From assembly GCA_003019535.1 (NCBI GenBank), contig NEXG01000001.1, positions 1 to 64,000 of the forward strand: a stretch of 64,000 bases of DNA, read 5' to 3'. Origin of the DNA: Candidatus Marsarchaeota G2 archaeon ECH_B_1 (lineage in GTDB: Archaea; Thermoproteota; Thermoprotei_A; Marsarchaeales; Marsarchaeaceae). The notes beneath the pieces were generated by a model. The model did no database searches. It had not been told where the DNA came from and saw only the letters and a list, made by a program, of their open reading frames with translations. The number at the start of each line of letters is the position of its first letter. Position 1 is the first letter of the stretch. A program made the position numbers and the translations under genes. Shown here piece after piece: positions 26,458-47,379 of the stretch.

Positions 26458-28146
26458 TTATGTCTGGTTTATGTACCTGCGTAGTCTCTCGAGTTCTTCA
26501 TGTCCTCTTGCAGTCAGCTCTACAAAGGATATTCCGCTTTTCCTCTTCCTCTTAAGATAACCTAGCCTGATGAGCCTTGACGTTACCTCAACTGACTGGG
26601 TCTTCAACCCAAGCGCCTGGGCAAACGTGGTCTCTTCAACAGTGGTGTACTTTTCCACATAACTGAGTGCTGCCATGATTGAGTCGAGTTGCTCCCTCTT
26701 GAACACGTTTGGGAGGTAGGGTTTCTCACTGATATCTTCAACCTCTAGAGGTGGAGCGGATGTGTTAATCAGTTTTTCAAGCTCCTCAAGACTCACTTTA
26801 CGCGTAGCCGCCTGCTTTGAGAATGGGCTCAGCGAGCCGCTTCTCGTTAGCACATAGGATGCATTGTCAGCGATGGTTGAGTTGCTAGGGTTTAAATCAC
26901 TAACAATCTTCCTGAATTCGCCATCCGCACCCATATAAACCAGTGTGCCAAAACCCTTCAACCCGTCCCGTTTAAGCCTTCCCTTAGGTAGCAGGAAAAC
27001 CGTGTTGTGAGTCAAACGTAAATCGTTTAAAATGTGGGATACGACATTCTCCCTGAAACGTGTGAGGTCCAAGACCAGTGTTCTACCCCGCTCAGCCAAG
27101 CTTTTAGCAAGCGTATACATCACGAAGCAGTTTGCCTGCACGGCATCAATCTGTGAAAGGTCGACTATTAGGTTGGGAAGTAGATCTGGCGGATGATCCT
27201 TTACAAGGCCCCTCCACACGTTGTTCGTCTTTAAACTCTCTTGGAAGGCGTATAGCTCATCGTGAACCCTGGATGAGAGTCCGCGGGACTGTGTTTCAGC
27301 CTCCAAGATATCTCCGAGGAGGAAGGGATTCAGAGGCTGTCCCTCCTTGTTTGCTTTCGAGATGGTTGAAGCCAACACTAAGGCGGATTCTGTGCTAAGG
27401 CCATAGCAAACTTCGGCGACATCACTTATGAAACCCCCATCCATGTTCTGAGCGAAGAGGTTGAAACCGAAGTTATAGCCAAATCGGAGGACATGGGCAT
27501 GAGACCAAACTTGCTCGGGTAGAACCTCCAAAGCTGCTAGGATATGGGGCTTCTCAGCTGATAGTAAGACAAATTTGTCAGCGAAATCAAAAGCTTTGGA
27601 GACCGCCGCGCCATAGTCCTCTTCGGCGAAGACTATAACTATTGGGAACACCGTTTTGAACTGATTTCCACCTTCAGCTATAAGGGACTCATCCACGTTT
27701 GTGTCGGGCACAATCCTATACCCTTTAATACTAAGAAGAGAGACAACGCTCCTTATGGCAAACGAGAGTTTCTGTTTGGCCACTCTGTCAGTTAGTGCTG
27801 TTGTGTACAAAATAATCTTATGGGCCTGAACATCAGTGTTAGGCATCCTAGTCAAAACTGCGGTAGCCTTTACACCAAGTTCCTCCCCTAATGCTAGGGC
27901 ATACCTTACCTCTAAATCAGGCGCATCTGTATAGAATGATGACGCGTAACTTTTACGGAGCCTAACGATGGGTAGCCTCACCGATACACCAGACCGCCTA
28001 CTAAGCCATCTGTAAACGAAGAAGATCATGGGTAAAATGAGAAGTGTCACGCCTAAAACCAAATTATATGAACTAGCTAAACCCACGATAACGAGATAGG
28101 CGATCAAAGAAGCTACGTAAACCGCGATCCTTTTCTTACTGGCCAT
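26458..28146 (-). CDS. uncharacterised 562-aa membrane protein with C-terminal winged helix
   Basis: The N-terminus has two transmembrane helices (about 6-25 and 28-48). The long cytoplasmic part that follows lacks an obvious nucleotide-binding P-loop. The segment LLPNLIVDLSQIDAVQANCF and the region after it resemble the late part of HerA/VirB4-type ATPases, where a short 'I-D-L-S' strand leads into a helix, but Walker A and Walker B were not found. A winged-helix-like domain closes the protein (about 480-560: TVEETTFAQALGLKTQSVEV, SRLIRLGYLKRKRKSG). A degenerate relative of membrane-anchored DNA-translocase ATPases is one idea; the function is unknown. It stands alone, and a 14-bp palindrome lies in its upstream region. 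Confidence 0.75.
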   Translation of the reverse strand: MASKKRIAVYVASLIAYLVIVGLASSYNLVLGVTLLILPMIFFVYRWLSRRSGVSVRLPIVRLRKSYASSFYTDAPDLEVRYALALGEELGVKATAVLTRMPNTDVQAHKIILYTTALTDRVAKQKLSFAIRSVVSLLSIKGYRIVPDTNVDESLIAEGGNQFKTVFPIVIVFAEEDYGAAVSKAFDFADKFVLLSAEKPHILAALEVLPEQVWSHAHVLRFGYNFGFNLFAQNMDGGFISDVAEVCYGLSTESALVLASTISKANKEGQPLNPFLLGDILEAETQSRGLSSRVHDELYAFQESLKTNNVWRGLVKDHPPDLLPNLIVDLSQIDAVQANCFVMYTLAKSLAERGRTLVLDLTRFRENVVSHILNDLRLTHNTVFLLPKGRLKRDGLKGFGTLVYMGADGEFRKIVSDLNPSNSTIADNASYVLTRSGSLSPFSKQAATRKVSLEELEKLINTSAPPLEVEDISEKPYLPNVFKREQLDSIMAALSYVEKYTTVEETTFAQALGLKTQSVEVTSRLIRLGYLKRKRKSGISFVELTARGHEELERLRRYINQT

Positions 28147-29535: not shown

Positions 29536-29565
29536 ATTTGAAATATTAAACGTAAATTTGAAATA
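29536..29565 (+). promoter_or_regulatory. phased direct repeats, candidate operator
   Basis: ATTTGAAATA occurs at 29536-29545 and again at 29556-29565, exactly 20 bp apart, or two helical turns. The pair ends 37 bp before the ATG of a winged-helix regulator, next to its TATA-like region. The arrangement fits autoregulation by a dimer binding one face of the DNA. Confidence 0.5.
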
Positions 29566-29602
29566 GCAAATCAATTTTTATTTTATTGGGTGAACACTAA
29601 CG

Positions 29603-30226
29603 ATGACACGTTATACTTTGATTGTCCCAGTTGGTAACAACATTCAGTCATTGTTTATCGGGCTCAGAGAGTTTCCAACTAGGAAGCTGGTCCTGATTTA
29701 TACGAAGGACAAGAAGCGGGACGTATCTTTATTAAAAGAACAGTTGGCTATATTTAGACTCCCCATTGAGACGTATGAGCTGAAGGACAACATATTGAAT
29801 GAAACATTAAACATATTAGCTAGACTACATAAGGAAAACGATGACCTCATAGTGAACACTTCTACCACTGACGCCTCTATGGCAAGCATAGTTCTGAGCG
29901 CGGCAAGCATTATAGGTATAAAGGCTTTCACCGTGTTTAACGACGTACCGTTTATACTTCCTACGTTTAAGGTCAATCTCTCTAAGCTCGTTTCCAAGAA
30001 GAAGTCAGAAATTCTTAAAGCCCTTGTAAACGGACCGCTCAGCCTCTCAGAGCTGGCTAAGAGGGTCAGATTAAGCCCCCCACTACTCTCCTACCATCTG
30101 AATGGTAACAAGAGGAACCACGGTTTGCTTGATATCGGACTGGTTAAAGTTCAGGGTGGCTTAAGAAACAAAACCGTTGCGCTAAGCGATTTAGGAAGCA
30201 TGCTAATAAGATTCTTGAATACTTAA
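29603..30226 (+). CDS. CARF-like/winged-helix transcription regulator (Csa3/DUF6293-like)
   Basis: A 207-residue two-domain protein. The N-terminal 125 residues form an alternating beta/alpha unit: first strand RYTLIVPVGN, a central DDLIVNTSTTDASMASIVL with the polar ligand loop seen in CARF domains, and a last strand AFTVFND. The C-terminal 80 residues are a winged helix (KSEILKALVNGPLSLSELAK with SPPLLSYHLNG). This is the architecture of Csa3 and of DUF6293 regulators, which can bind cyclic oligoadenylate or related nucleotides. No CRISPR array or cas gene is in the window. ATG at 29603 has GGTGA upstream. Ligand and targets are unknown. Confidence 0.65.
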   Translation: MTRYTLIVPVGNNIQSLFIGLREFPTRKLVLIYTKDKKRDVSLLKEQLAIFRLPIETYELKDNILNETLNILARLHKENDDLIVNTSTTDASMASIVLSAASIIGIKAFTVFNDVPFILPTFKVNLSKLVSKKKSEILKALVNGPLSLSELAKRVRLSPPLLSYHLNGNKRNHGLLDIGLVKVQGGLRNKTVALSDLGSMLIRFLNT

Positions 30227-30252
30227 ATAAAAAGTTTAAGTACTAAGAAAAA

Positions 30253-30300
30253 TTTATATTTTACCGAGCGTCTAATAATATTGTGGCTTAAGGGGGTGAG
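30253..30300 (+). promoter_or_regulatory. promoter and ribosome-binding site of the four-helix membrane protein
   Basis: TTTATATTTTA (30253-30263) is a strong box A. GGGGGTGAG (30292-30300) is an unusually good Shine-Dalgarno, spaced 5 nt from the GTG at 30306. This gene therefore has a leader, unlike most in the window. Confidence 0.6.
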
Positions 30301-30305
30301 GCACG

Positions 30306-30815
30306 GTGGAGATAAGGAGTAACACCGTAACTCCCTTAAGGTGGAGTAGCTCAGTTCTTTTGGGTTTGCTCGGAGGGTTAATCGGCTCACTGATTATGGG
30401 TGCTCTAGGATACCTAGCTCCTGCACCAAAGTTTGACTCACCCTTCTACGTAGCCCCCTTTATGGCGGTAGGGCTAAGAGGGGCCCCAGCGTACGCGGCT
30501 GGCTGGGTTCTTAACATAGTCGTGGGTCTGATACTGGGTGCAGCGTACGCAGCCGTTGCTAGTGGGGTTAAAAGAATGAGCGCCCACAGGCCGAGCAGGG
30601 GTATACCTTGGGGTTTGGGTGTAGGCGTAGTTGGCTGGCTGGTCTACGGGCTACCCGCAATTAGCTCAAGCGTTGGGCTTGGCCACCCAGTGCTTGTTGG
30701 ACTAGTGCTCGTGTTCTCACTGGTGTACGGCGCATTACTTGGAGCTATCTACTCTACGATAGCTTCAAGGATGGTTAGCACCTCTAGGGAACGCCCCCAG
30801 ACAATTAGCTCTTAG
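30306..30815 (+). CDS. four-helix membrane protein of unknown function
   Basis: A 169-residue protein with about four hydrophobic helices (near 14-36, 62-86, 101-122, 126-150). They are rich in Gly and Ala with repeated GLLGGLIGSL and GLILGAAYAAV patterns that suggest close helix packing. No catalytic motif is seen. It is expressed from its own promoter 79 bp after the CARF-like gene, and could be a target of that regulator, though nothing proves it. The 3' end overlaps the convergent glycosylase gene by 11 bp. Confidence 0.65.
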   Translation: MEIRSNTVTPLRWSSSVLLGLLGGLIGSLIMGALGYLAPAPKFDSPFYVAPFMAVGLRGAPAYAAGWVLNIVVGLILGAAYAAVASGVKRMSAHRPSRGIPWGLGVGVVGWLVYGLPAISSSVGLGHPVLVGLVLVFSLVYGALLGAIYSTIASRMVSTSRERPQTISS

Positions 30816-43998: not shown

Positions 43999-45210
43999 TT
44001 GATTAACTTGGCTACTGATGATTGGATCTGCGGTTTCGAAGAGGTGCGTTCTGGCCTCACAACAGATGTTTACTTAGAGAGGATGATGGAGGCTCTACGC
44101 AAAGACGGTAAGGCGGACACACATGTTTGGGCTGAGTTTTCAGGCGACCTGCCGGATGGATACGAGTGGGGTGTCTTTGCCGGGTTAAACGAGGTCATGG
44201 GGCTACTAAATGGGAGAAATGTGGATGTTTGGGCTTTGCCTGAAGGAAGCGTGTTTCGTGGGGAAGACGTAAACGGTATTGAAGAGCCGGTGATGGTGAT
44301 TAGCGGCCCATACAGTGAGTTCGCCCTTCTTGAGACAGCCATCCTAGGAATTCTATCGTATAACTGCGGTGTGGCCACCGCCGCAGCTCGTGTTAAAGTT
44401 GCAGCAGAAGGTGCACCAGTTTTCGCGTTTGGGATTAGGCGCATGCACCCCGCGCTCGCCGCCGTGTCTGATAGAGCCGCGTACATAGGTGGTGTGGATG
44501 GCTTCAGCGGTGTGGGCGCAGGTAGAAGACTTGGAATAACACCAGTGGGCACAATGCCACACTCATTTATACTGATTTATGGACGCCAAGAGGATGCGTG
44601 GTCTGCATTCGATAAATACGCACCACCCGATGTGCCCCGCACACTTCTCTGCGACACACTTTCAGATGAGAAGGACGAGGTGATTAGGGCGGCCAAACTA
44701 CTCGGGGCAAAGCTTGCGGCGGTAAGACTGGACACGCCTAAAAGCAGAAGGGGGGACTTTGAACACATAGTACGTGAAGTGCGCTGGGAGCTCGACCGCC
44801 TAGGTTTCAAAAAGGTTAAGATTATGGTTTCTGGCGGACTCGACGAAAAAAGTATTCGAGGCTTAAAGAAGGCTGGCGCCGACATGTTCGGTGTGGGCAC
44901 AAGCATAGCCGCTGCAAGAGTAATCGACTTTTCAATGGATCTGTGCCAAGTTGGGGGAAAACCCGTATCGAAGAGAGGGCGTTTTTCGGGTGTGAAAAGC
45001 GTCTATAGGTGTACGGAGTGTTTAACCGATGTGGTCGTTGGTTGGGAAGACTCAGTCGAGAACTGCCCAAAGTGTGGGGGAATCATGGAGCCGGCTATGA
45101 TCAAGGTTATGGAGTCCGGTAAACCACTAGTTAACGAAGACATTCAAAAGATCAGGACGCGCTCAATGCAGCAAACATTAAAGCTAGGGCTAAACCTCGA
45201 TTCAAACTGA
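43999..45210 (+). CDS. pncB: nicotinate phosphoribosyltransferase
   Basis: About 404 residues. It makes nicotinate mononucleotide from nicotinate and PRPP in NAD salvage. The N-terminus NLATDDWICGFEEVRSGL, then TTDVYLERM, aligns with the archaeal enzyme from its first residues, so the TTG at 43999 is chosen although the frame is open back to 43870. FGIRRMHPALAAVSDRAAYI, RLDTPKSRRGDF and IMVSGGLDEKSI are the substrate and phosphate sites. A C-terminal zinc knuckle (CTEC...CPKCGG) is present as in Thermoplasma-type enzymes. It overlaps the convergent hel308 by 9 bp. Confidence 0.87.
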   Translation: MINLATDDWICGFEEVRSGLTTDVYLERMMEALRKDGKADTHVWAEFSGDLPDGYEWGVFAGLNEVMGLLNGRNVDVWALPEGSVFRGEDVNGIEEPVMVISGPYSEFALLETAILGILSYNCGVATAAARVKVAAEGAPVFAFGIRRMHPALAAVSDRAAYIGGVDGFSGVGAGRRLGITPVGTMPHSFILIYGRQEDAWSAFDKYAPPDVPRTLLCDTLSDEKDEVIRAAKLLGAKLAAVRLDTPKSRRGDFEHIVREVRWELDRLGFKKVKIMVSGGLDEKSIRGLKKAGADMFGVGTSIAAARVIDFSMDLCQVGGKPVSKRGRFSGVKSVYRCTECLTDVVVGWEDSVENCPKCGGIMEPAMIKVMESGKPLVNEDIQKIRTRSMQQTLKLGLNLDSN

Positions 45211-47379
45211 CGATGAAAGCTTAGAGGCTTGCTCCTTTATACTCAAGGCTAACTGGGTTGTCACACCTCTCAGTTGGGTGAGCTTTTCAACGGGAGCCTC
45301 GGCGACATCCTTTAGTGTTTTTATACCACTATTATAAAGCTGTCTGGCTCTAACTCTACCAATACCTCTAAGTCCAACGAGTGGTAGGAGCTCGGATTTT
45401 ACACCCGACTCGAGCCTGACGCTGAGATCAGTATAGGCTTTTACAAGGCTTCTATCTGACTTCAGTGTTTGGAACAGTGAGGCTATGCCCCTACTCACCC
45501 ATGATGCAGTGGTGTATAGTTGGTAGAGGTCTCCTGGTTGGACACCGATGGCCTCCTCTATCTTCGCTTCACTAACCTCGTTAACCCACCACTCTAAAAC
45601 CTTCGCGGCTTTCCAAGCACCCAGATACTCCTCATAGGGGTCTGGTGATAGGTCCATCATAGTCTCCACATACTCCTCGAGTGAGACGGGTAGTTCATCC
45701 TCCTCTTGATCAATCTCGTAGCTCAAATCTTCTTTCTCCTTCATACCCAATCTTGGCTTCGGCACCTCAACGCTCAAACAAACCAAGTGGAGGCTGTGCC
45801 TATCGACACCGCTAACGCCATAGTCAGCAGCCTTTTTCACCAAGATCGCGGTGTATGGGTGAAAGTATACCTCACTCGTCTTCTTACCGAAGGCCGTGGG
45901 TAGAAGGTAGCCCCCCTCATCTGTGAGAAAAGAGTTATCGAGAAGAAACTTTAGACATCTCGAGATAGATCTCCACATAGAGGGCTTAGAGGAAAGGGTA
46001 CCAGAGAATGTTTCCGAGAAAAACTCCCGGAGCTTCTGCTCATCAGCGGCATAACCAGACGTCACATTTGATAACACATGGGGTAAGAGAGTCAACTCAC
46101 CCAAGAGCTGTGGCTCAGCGGGTTCGGGTTTGGAGCGCACGTACTCCTCCAGTAACTCTTCAACCTCATCCGCTTTACGGGCTATAAGCACCGCTTCTCC
46201 ATATGGGTCCAGACCGGGCCTGCCCGCCCTACCCGCCATCTGGTGATACTCCAAAACGGGGATACGAACCCTCCCAAAACCCTGCTCATACCTAGTAACA
46301 TCATATATTATCACACGTCTTGCTGGTAAATTCAAGCCGGCTGCAAGTGTGGTGGTTGAAGCCAAAACCTTCACCTTCCTAGCCATAAACGCCTGCTCGA
46401 GGATTGTTCTCGCATCAAACGAGAGCCCTGCGTGATGGAAGGCTACACCCGACTTTATGAGGGAGACCAACTCATCGTGGGTTGGCCCTAGCTCGTCAAA
46501 AGAGCCAAGCTTCTTAGCGAGCTCGCTCAACTCCTTCTTTTCACCTTCAGAGAGGCTAAGCTTCCCAGTGAACTTTTTAGCCACACTCTCAGCCTGCCGA
46601 CGGGTGGAGGCGAAGATCAAAACTTGTCCTCCCTTGTTTATCGAATCCAATGTTAGGTCGACAACAGGCTCATCCCCAGTGTGTTTGACATTCACCGTTT
46701 CACCCGTATCAAGATGAATTAGGCCACCATAGTAGACTCCCTGCTTAAGTGGAACAGGTCTCCAATCACTCACAACTAGCTTAGAGGACAGCCACCGAGC
46801 GATTTGTGAAGCGTTACTTATGGTTGCACTAAGAGAGAGAAACCTTATCTCTGGGTTAATTTTCTTAAGTCTTGTTAACACAACTTCAAGGGGCGGTCCA
46901 CGTGACCTGTCGCCAACCAGATGCACTTCGTCAGCGACCACAACGTTAGTCTCCGTTACCCACGACTCAGTGGCTCTCCGCCTCAAAATCGAGTCACACT
47001 TCTCATAAGTCAAAACCACTATATCATAGTCAGCGAGCCACTTGTCATACCTATCAAAATCACCCGTACTCGATGCCACGCGTATCCCAAGCCTTTCCCA
47101 CTTCCTTAATTCTTCTAGCTTCTGCGCGGCGAGAGCTCTAAGCGGAACAAGGTATAGGGCTTTCCCACCCTTTTCAAGCAGTACTTTGGTTATCATGAGT
47201 TCGGCGATCAGTGTTTTACCGCTGGATGTAGGTGCGCTCACAGTCATGGATTCCCCGTCCAGCAACCCAGCCTTTATTGATTCAACCTGCGGAGGCCAAA
47301 GCTTCTCTATATGTCTTTCATACATCACCTCCTTTACTTGAGGAGGGATAGGGAGCTCGTCTATCGTCAATTCACTCAT
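45202..47379 (-). CDS. hel308: Hel308 superfamily 2 DNA helicase
   Basis: A 725-residue 3'-5' helicase acting at stalled forks. Q31 of the Q motif and Walker A APTSSGKT (49-56) are followed by a DEVH box (VVADEVHLVGD, near 147). Motif IV-VI includes FASTRRQAE, ASTTTLAAGLNLPARRVII and YHQMAGRAGRPGLD. The ratchet and C-terminal helix-hairpin-helix domain (LVGLRGIGRVRARQLYNSGI) complete the Hel308 architecture. It overlaps the GINS gene upstream by 8 bp, indicating one operon. Confidence 0.93.
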   Translation of the reverse strand: MSELTIDELPIPPQVKEVMYERHIEKLWPPQVESIKAGLLDGESMTVSAPTSSGKTLIAELMITKVLLEKGGKALYLVPLRALAAQKLEELRKWERLGIRVASSTGDFDRYDKWLADYDIVVLTYEKCDSILRRRATESWVTETNVVVADEVHLVGDRSRGPPLEVVLTRLKKINPEIRFLSLSATISNASQIARWLSSKLVVSDWRPVPLKQGVYYGGLIHLDTGETVNVKHTGDEPVVDLTLDSINKGGQVLIFASTRRQAESVAKKFTGKLSLSEGEKKELSELAKKLGSFDELGPTHDELVSLIKSGVAFHHAGLSFDARTILEQAFMARKVKVLASTTTLAAGLNLPARRVIIYDVTRYEQGFGRVRIPVLEYHQMAGRAGRPGLDPYGEAVLIARKADEVEELLEEYVRSKPEPAEPQLLGELTLLPHVLSNVTSGYAADEQKLREFFSETFSGTLSSKPSMWRSISRCLKFLLDNSFLTDEGGYLLPTAFGKKTSEVYFHPYTAILVKKAADYGVSGVDRHSLHLVCLSVEVPKPRLGMKEKEDLSYEIDQEEDELPVSLEEYVETMMDLSPDPYEEYLGAWKAAKVLEWWVNEVSEAKIEEAIGVQPGDLYQLYTTASWVSRGIASLFQTLKSDRSLVKAYTDLSVRLESGVKSELLPLVGLRGIGRVRARQLYNSGIKTLKDVAEAPVEKLTQLRGVTTQLALSIKEQASKLSSSV

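Follow-up and report, generated by a model that had tools for sequence, protein, structure and literature searches.

Detection of cyclic oligoadenylate (cOA), the alarm molecule of antiviral defence, is the role usually ascribed to CARF domains. The 64-kb stretch of archaeal DNA analysed here (the window) was predicted, from a first reading of its sequence, to encode at positions 29603-30226 a CARF-like regulator standing outside any CRISPR locus, which raises the question of what such a protein would sense and which genes it would control.

Architecture of the regulator

The gene lies exactly where it was originally placed, on the + strand at 29603-30226, with an ATG start and an intact open reading frame coding for a protein of 207 aa (P0001). 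An orthologue sharing 97% identity is encoded in a second species of the genus ('archaeon isolate B26', genome G001, locus L010; the sister species below), in which the order of the surrounding genes is the same. Nucleotide differences between the two genes number 4, 3 and 21 at the first, second and third codon positions, respectively, and this preponderance of third-position changes, together with the close orthologue, indicates that 29603-30226 is a genuine gene under selection at the protein level.

When P0001 alone was compared with Pfam, NCBIfam and the sequences in the PDB, only a winged helix was revealed, no CARF model in Pfam or NCBIfam matching at E<=1. The winged helix (residues 132-167; 29996-30103, + strand) matches the ArsR model HTH_5 (PF01022) with 35 bits against a cut-off of 22, and its recognition helix is located near SPPLLSYHLNG. 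The NCBIfam metalloregulator models score far below their cut-offs (22 bits for NF033788, cut-off 55), and the metal ligands of ArsR/SmtB metalloregulators, which are usually cysteines, are not seen in P0001, a protein devoid of cysteine.

The CARF domain (residues ~4-125; 29612-29977, + strand), with six strands and four main helices, came to light through PADLOC clade models, the relatives of P0001 and its predicted fold. The PADLOC model CARF3--CARF (PDLC01866) matches residues 7-204 (E=2.4e-13), with further matches to CasR (3.8e-11) and Csa3 (3.6e-8), and the CARF3 models match 14 of the 14 aligned family members. The match to the CARF3 clade of PADLOC-DB is direct and spans the full length of P0001, yet the clade models cover many proteins, and the match carries no information on ligand or CRISPR role. 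In the originally suggested comparison with CARF, Csa3 and DUF6293, P0001 matches the PADLOC CARF3 and Csa3 models; the HFX_2341_N domain (PF19810, DUF6293) is matched by 12 of 14 relatives (best E=4.3e-9), and P0001 itself has no PF19810 match at E<=1. Curated Csa3 models are matched weakly by some relatives (Csa3_N, PF22662, by ten; TIGR01884 by six), while P0001 matches neither at E<=1 and reaches neither cut-off.

In an AlphaFold2 model built from P0001 and its near-identical orthologue only, the strands and helices of the N-terminal domain follow the order b1-a1-b2-a2-b3-a3-b4-a4-b5-b6, with moderate confidence (pLDDT 59 overall, ~80 over the first ~80 residues and poor in the winged helix). 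The top PDB matches of this model in Foldseek are the Csa3 structures 2WTE and 6WXQ (E=5-7e-7, probability 1.00), and 28 of the 29 matches at E<=0.001 are CARF proteins by name, the other being 1xmx (VC1899), which represents a CARF family in PMC4012209. With strand directions taken from the Csa3 match, the predicted domain has the five parallel strands, antiparallel sixth strand and intervening helices of the Rossmann-like CARF fold. On the clade models and the predicted structure, the N-terminal domain of P0001 is assigned as CARF; a different fold would have counted against the original prediction, and Csa3 emerged as the closest. Csa3 of Saccharolobus solfataricus (Sso1445) shares the combination of CARF domain and winged helix over its full length and is similar in size (212 aa). 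The Csa3-like layout first proposed for P0001, a beta/alpha domain followed by a winged helix, is thus borne out by the PADLOC, Foldseek and PF01022 matches.

The motif 2 loop

The polar loop NTSTTDASMAS (residues 85-95; 29855-29887, + strand), noted at the outset as a likely ligand loop, corresponds in both the family and the profile alignments to CARF motif 2, in a degenerate form. P0001 has T89, A91 and S95 at positions where 12 of 12 other aligned homologues have G, K and C, so that the motif core reads STTDA in P0001 and GDK in the others; the orthologue in the sister species shares T89 and A91, and the branch leading to P0001 in the family tree is very long. The family sequence NVSSGDK is placed by the profile alignment on NVTGGTK of Can2, a cA4-bound CARF nuclease. 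In Csa3, motif 2 takes the form L93-x2-G96-hydrophobic-R98, and substitution of either residue (G96A or R98A) abolishes cA4 binding (PMC8844856). The glycine and the Arg/Lys typical of motif 2 in cOA-binding CARF proteins are lacking in P0001, and the replacement of residues essential to Csa3 makes cA4 or cA6 an unlikely ligand, contrary to the original suggestion. P0001 is predicted not to bind cA4 in the manner of Csa3, and would appear to have retained the CARF fold while losing the floor of the cOA-binding site. The cysteine found at the S95 position (29885-29887 in the window) in all 12 homologues adjoins motif 2 and may form a thiol switch in these relatives.

Neighbouring genes and candidate operators

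Downstream of the regulator, at 30306-30815 (+ strand), a small integral membrane protein is encoded which is related to DUF6789 (E=2.7e-5, below the curated cut-off). This gene had been named as a possible target of the regulator, and the proposal is a plausible one, since genes of this kind recur beside members of the family in four lineages. Of 21 DUF6789-like genes in the panel, 7 are at most 4 kb away from a regulator, where random placement would give 0.12, as counted with a profile drawn partly from the regulator-adjacent genes themselves; the linked copies represent some four lineages (this genus, G005, family f28 and G381), giving an effective sample of four. Their recurrence in these lineages provides independent support for the membrane gene as a target. 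None of the 13 DUF6789-like copies in family f54 is linked to a regulator. Elsewhere in the host genome, a gene joining a C2H2 zinc finger to a membrane domain of the DUF6789-like kind (G000:C17:23004-23672; L083:2963-3673) lies ~14 kb from a paralogue of P0001, with an OsmC gene after it, and a similar fusion occurs ~2 kb from the regulator of G005. On the other side of P0001, a possible second membrane-linked regulator is encoded on the - strand at 26458-28146: the 562-aa product probably has membrane segments at its N terminus, and its C terminus weakly matches a winged helix (PF24409, E=0.017).

Two candidate operators flank the regulator gene. The first, a candidate autoregulatory site at 29536-29570 (+ strand), is a tandem 15-nt direct repeat, ATTTGAAATATTAAA / ATTTGAAATAGCAAA, with copies 20 bp (two turns) apart. 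Its 9-nt core, TTTGAAATA, occurs twice on the + strand of the 64 kb, both times here, and in the sister species the first copy has one mismatch in this core. The second, at 30220-30242 (+ strand), is a perfect 8-bp inverted repeat, TACTTAAA-N7-TTTAAGTA, which overlaps the stop codon of P0001 and is situated just upstream of a putative TATA-like element of the next gene, an A/T-rich stretch read by eye around AAATTTATATTTTAC (30249-30263, + strand). Such a repeat arises in ~1.5% of shuffles of the surrounding stretch, and comparison with the sister species, from 30221 onwards, shows no change in the palindrome. The stretch between P0001 and the membrane gene is 94% identical in that species, where the adjacency of the genes and both intergenic elements are kept. 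Both elements were chosen after looking at the sequence and are candidates only; neither was found upstream of the paralogues. Scans for sigma-70 promoters and terminators gave nothing above chance, as expected for an archaeal host.

The reading preferred here, and given slightly better than even chances, is that P0001 forms a dimer and regulates both its own gene and the DUF6789-like membrane gene next to it, as a member of a divergent branch that has lost cOA sensing. Its CARF domain would dimerise and hold an effector pocket, while the ArsR-type winged helix would bind DNA. Csa3 and the Methanosarcina mazei regulator MM_0565 are dimers that contact DNA through their winged helices (PMC8844856, PMC7465815), and MM_0565 also occupies its own promoter and has effects on many non-CRISPR genes (PMC7465815). 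The latter has the CARF domain and winged helix in common with P0001, but is located beside a type I-B locus and binds CRISPR leaders. P0001 would control itself by binding the tandem repeat in its own promoter, and the membrane gene by binding the palindrome. It would probably, unlike Csa3, be unresponsive to cOA, the glycine and the basic residue that hold the cA4 phosphates being replaced, and its signal may be a metabolite or a protein state connected with the envelope or with redox conditions, if a ligand is bound at all.

The host genome encodes two further members of the family, on contigs C17 and C5, and homologues are mainly limited to the same archaeal family and, elsewhere in the phylum, to families f28, f54 and f18; a family-alignment search of IMG/VR found none in viruses. 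Neighbouring genes were compared for 18 further members, over stretches of at most 20 kb. At seven loci (L067, L068, L070 and L074-L077, in f54 and f28) a gene pair adjoins the regulator, one encoding DUF3179 (E=1.6e-102) and the other a small membrane protein, and in several of these DUF7482 and DsbA-like thioredoxin genes are close by as well. DUF7482 adjoins the regulator at other loci, and near four regulators a DsbA-like thioredoxin is encoded along with a small membrane protein. In a 14-genome panel, each of the 7 DUF3179 genes has a regulator no more than 1.9 kb away, where random placement would give 0.04 within 4 kb. Many f18 genomes hold DUF3179 and no regulator, so the association is local rather than universal. 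P0001 would be on a divergent branch within an archaeal family whose genes adjoin those for envelope and thiol-redox functions (DUF3179, DUF7482, DsbA-like thioredoxin and DUF6789-like). DUF3179 is absent from the host genome, and the redox link seen in the relatives extends to P0001 by analogy alone.

These neighbours also bear on an unlikely alternative, in which P0001 would sense thiols, metals or redox state in the manner of ArsR proteins and control envelope redox genes, its CARF fold serving for dimerisation only. The ArsR-type helix, the conserved cysteine of the 12 relatives and the genes adjoining them, namely those for DsbA-like thioredoxins, a cupredoxin and DUF3179, which was placed among the CxxC/UxxC-type redox families in a selenoprotein survey (PMC9312934), are consistent with such a role, as are the OsmC and zinc-finger DUF6789-like genes near one paralogue. 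The cysteine-free P0001, however, cannot sense thiols as its relatives might, and the NCBIfam metalloregulator scores likewise argue against a metal sensor.

CRISPR context and possible sensing outside immunity

No CRISPR array was found in the 64-kb window by a scan for short-spaced direct repeats, and of the window's 57 largest open reading frames PADLOC scanned 39 besides P0001 and identified no cas genes among them, in keeping with the original prediction. A helicase encoded at 45205-47379 (- strand) matches many DEAD-box defence models (HamB, BrxHI) and is probably an ordinary archaeal superfamily-2 helicase. The search for cOA-synthesising Cas10 or other cyclases that the original prediction called for yielded no match to Cas10 (palm), DAC or SMODS (CD-NTase) in the whole host genome, an assembly of 66 contigs that is 93% complete. 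Given this completeness, and the presence of Cas10 in the sister species, Cas10 is not proven to be missing from the host species. SMODS matches in relatives were considered as possible cyclases; the one in G500 is a CCA-adding tRNA nucleotidyltransferase, and the others are of similar length. A single Cas1 is encoded in the host genome, on contig 48 only (G000:C48:11882-12732; L084), where it is split in two frames by an insertion/deletion or assembly error and adjoins a UDP-galactopyranose mutase-like gene; the contig may carry a decaying CRISPR locus or be a contaminant. The single-contig genomes G411, G500 and G521 each hold one to three copies of the regulator family and neither Cas1 nor Cas10.

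Whether P0001 could nevertheless serve as a working cOA sensor in trans was weighed against this background. As has been put forward for Csa3, it would change the transcription of CRISPR genes or stress genes on binding cOA, the source being a type III system located elsewhere in the cell or absent from the assembly. Its place in the CARF3/Csa3 clade, the glycine and lysine kept in motif 2 of its relatives, the Cas10 of the sister species, the split Cas1 and the incompleteness of the assembly speak for such a role. Csa3, however, resides with type I-A CRISPR-cas genes and binds cA4 through G96 and R98 (PMC8844856), whereas P0001 has no CRISPR linkage and carries Thr and Ala at the equivalent places; with no cyclase matched in the host genome and relatives persisting in finished genomes free of Cas1 and Cas10, a cOA sensor in trans is quite improbable.

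Least probable, and largely discounted, is a host gene still mainly devoted to defence as a distant repressor of cas genes, with coincidental neighbours, since this role, for which the cas repressor HFX_2341 (PMC11434293) and the HFX_2341_N matches of 12 of the 14 homologues provide a model, sits poorly with the three finished genomes and with a neighbour linkage well over that of random placement. The Csa3-like regulator HFX_2341 (DUF6293, PF19810) comes from Haloferax mediterranei, a species that has no type III cyclase, and, like P0001, combines a CARF-like domain with a winged helix and is encoded away from cas genes (PMC11434293), but at 308 aa it is considerably longer than P0001.

The absence of DUF3179 from the host genome, the partial origin of the DUF6789 profile in the neighbours themselves, the unlinked f54 copies and the lack of either operator upstream of the paralogues weigh against the preferred reading of P0001 as an autoregulated regulator of the membrane gene. 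In addition, its function may have drifted along the very long branch, the Cas10 of the sister species constitutes a source of cOA within the genus, and the precedents MM_0565 and HFX_2341 are both linked to CRISPR to some degree.

The occurrence of a CARF regulator outside CRISPR, put forward at first as new biology, has already been documented. Each CARF family has members unlinked to CRISPR-Cas, as noted in 2014 (PMC4012209); CARF homologues outside CRISPR-Cas are abundant according to a 2025 classification (PMC12669027), and HFX_2341 provides a further case (PMC11434293). No published description was found of the motif 2 loss in P0001 or, among the papers listed on DUF3179 and on CARF in Thaumarchaeota, of an archaeal CARF branch linked to DUF3179, DUF6789-like and DsbA-like genes. 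A more tentative reading, held possible but rather doubtful, extends to the family as a whole: this CARF branch may have withdrawn from CRISPR signalling and may couple the envelope or thiol-redox state to the transcription of DUF3179, DUF6789-like and DsbA-like genes through a ligand other than cOA, P0001 being a further derived copy minus the phosphate-binding motif. In the 2014 survey, cas1 and cas10 were both missing from only 9 of the 145 genomes encoding CARF proteins (PMC4012209). A family that thrives in genomes free of Cas1 and Cas10, with fixed envelope and redox neighbours and one branch devoid of the cOA-binding residues, would allow CARF sensing outside immunity to be put to the test, and the present locus supplies a defined motif difference together with candidates for the regulon and the operators.
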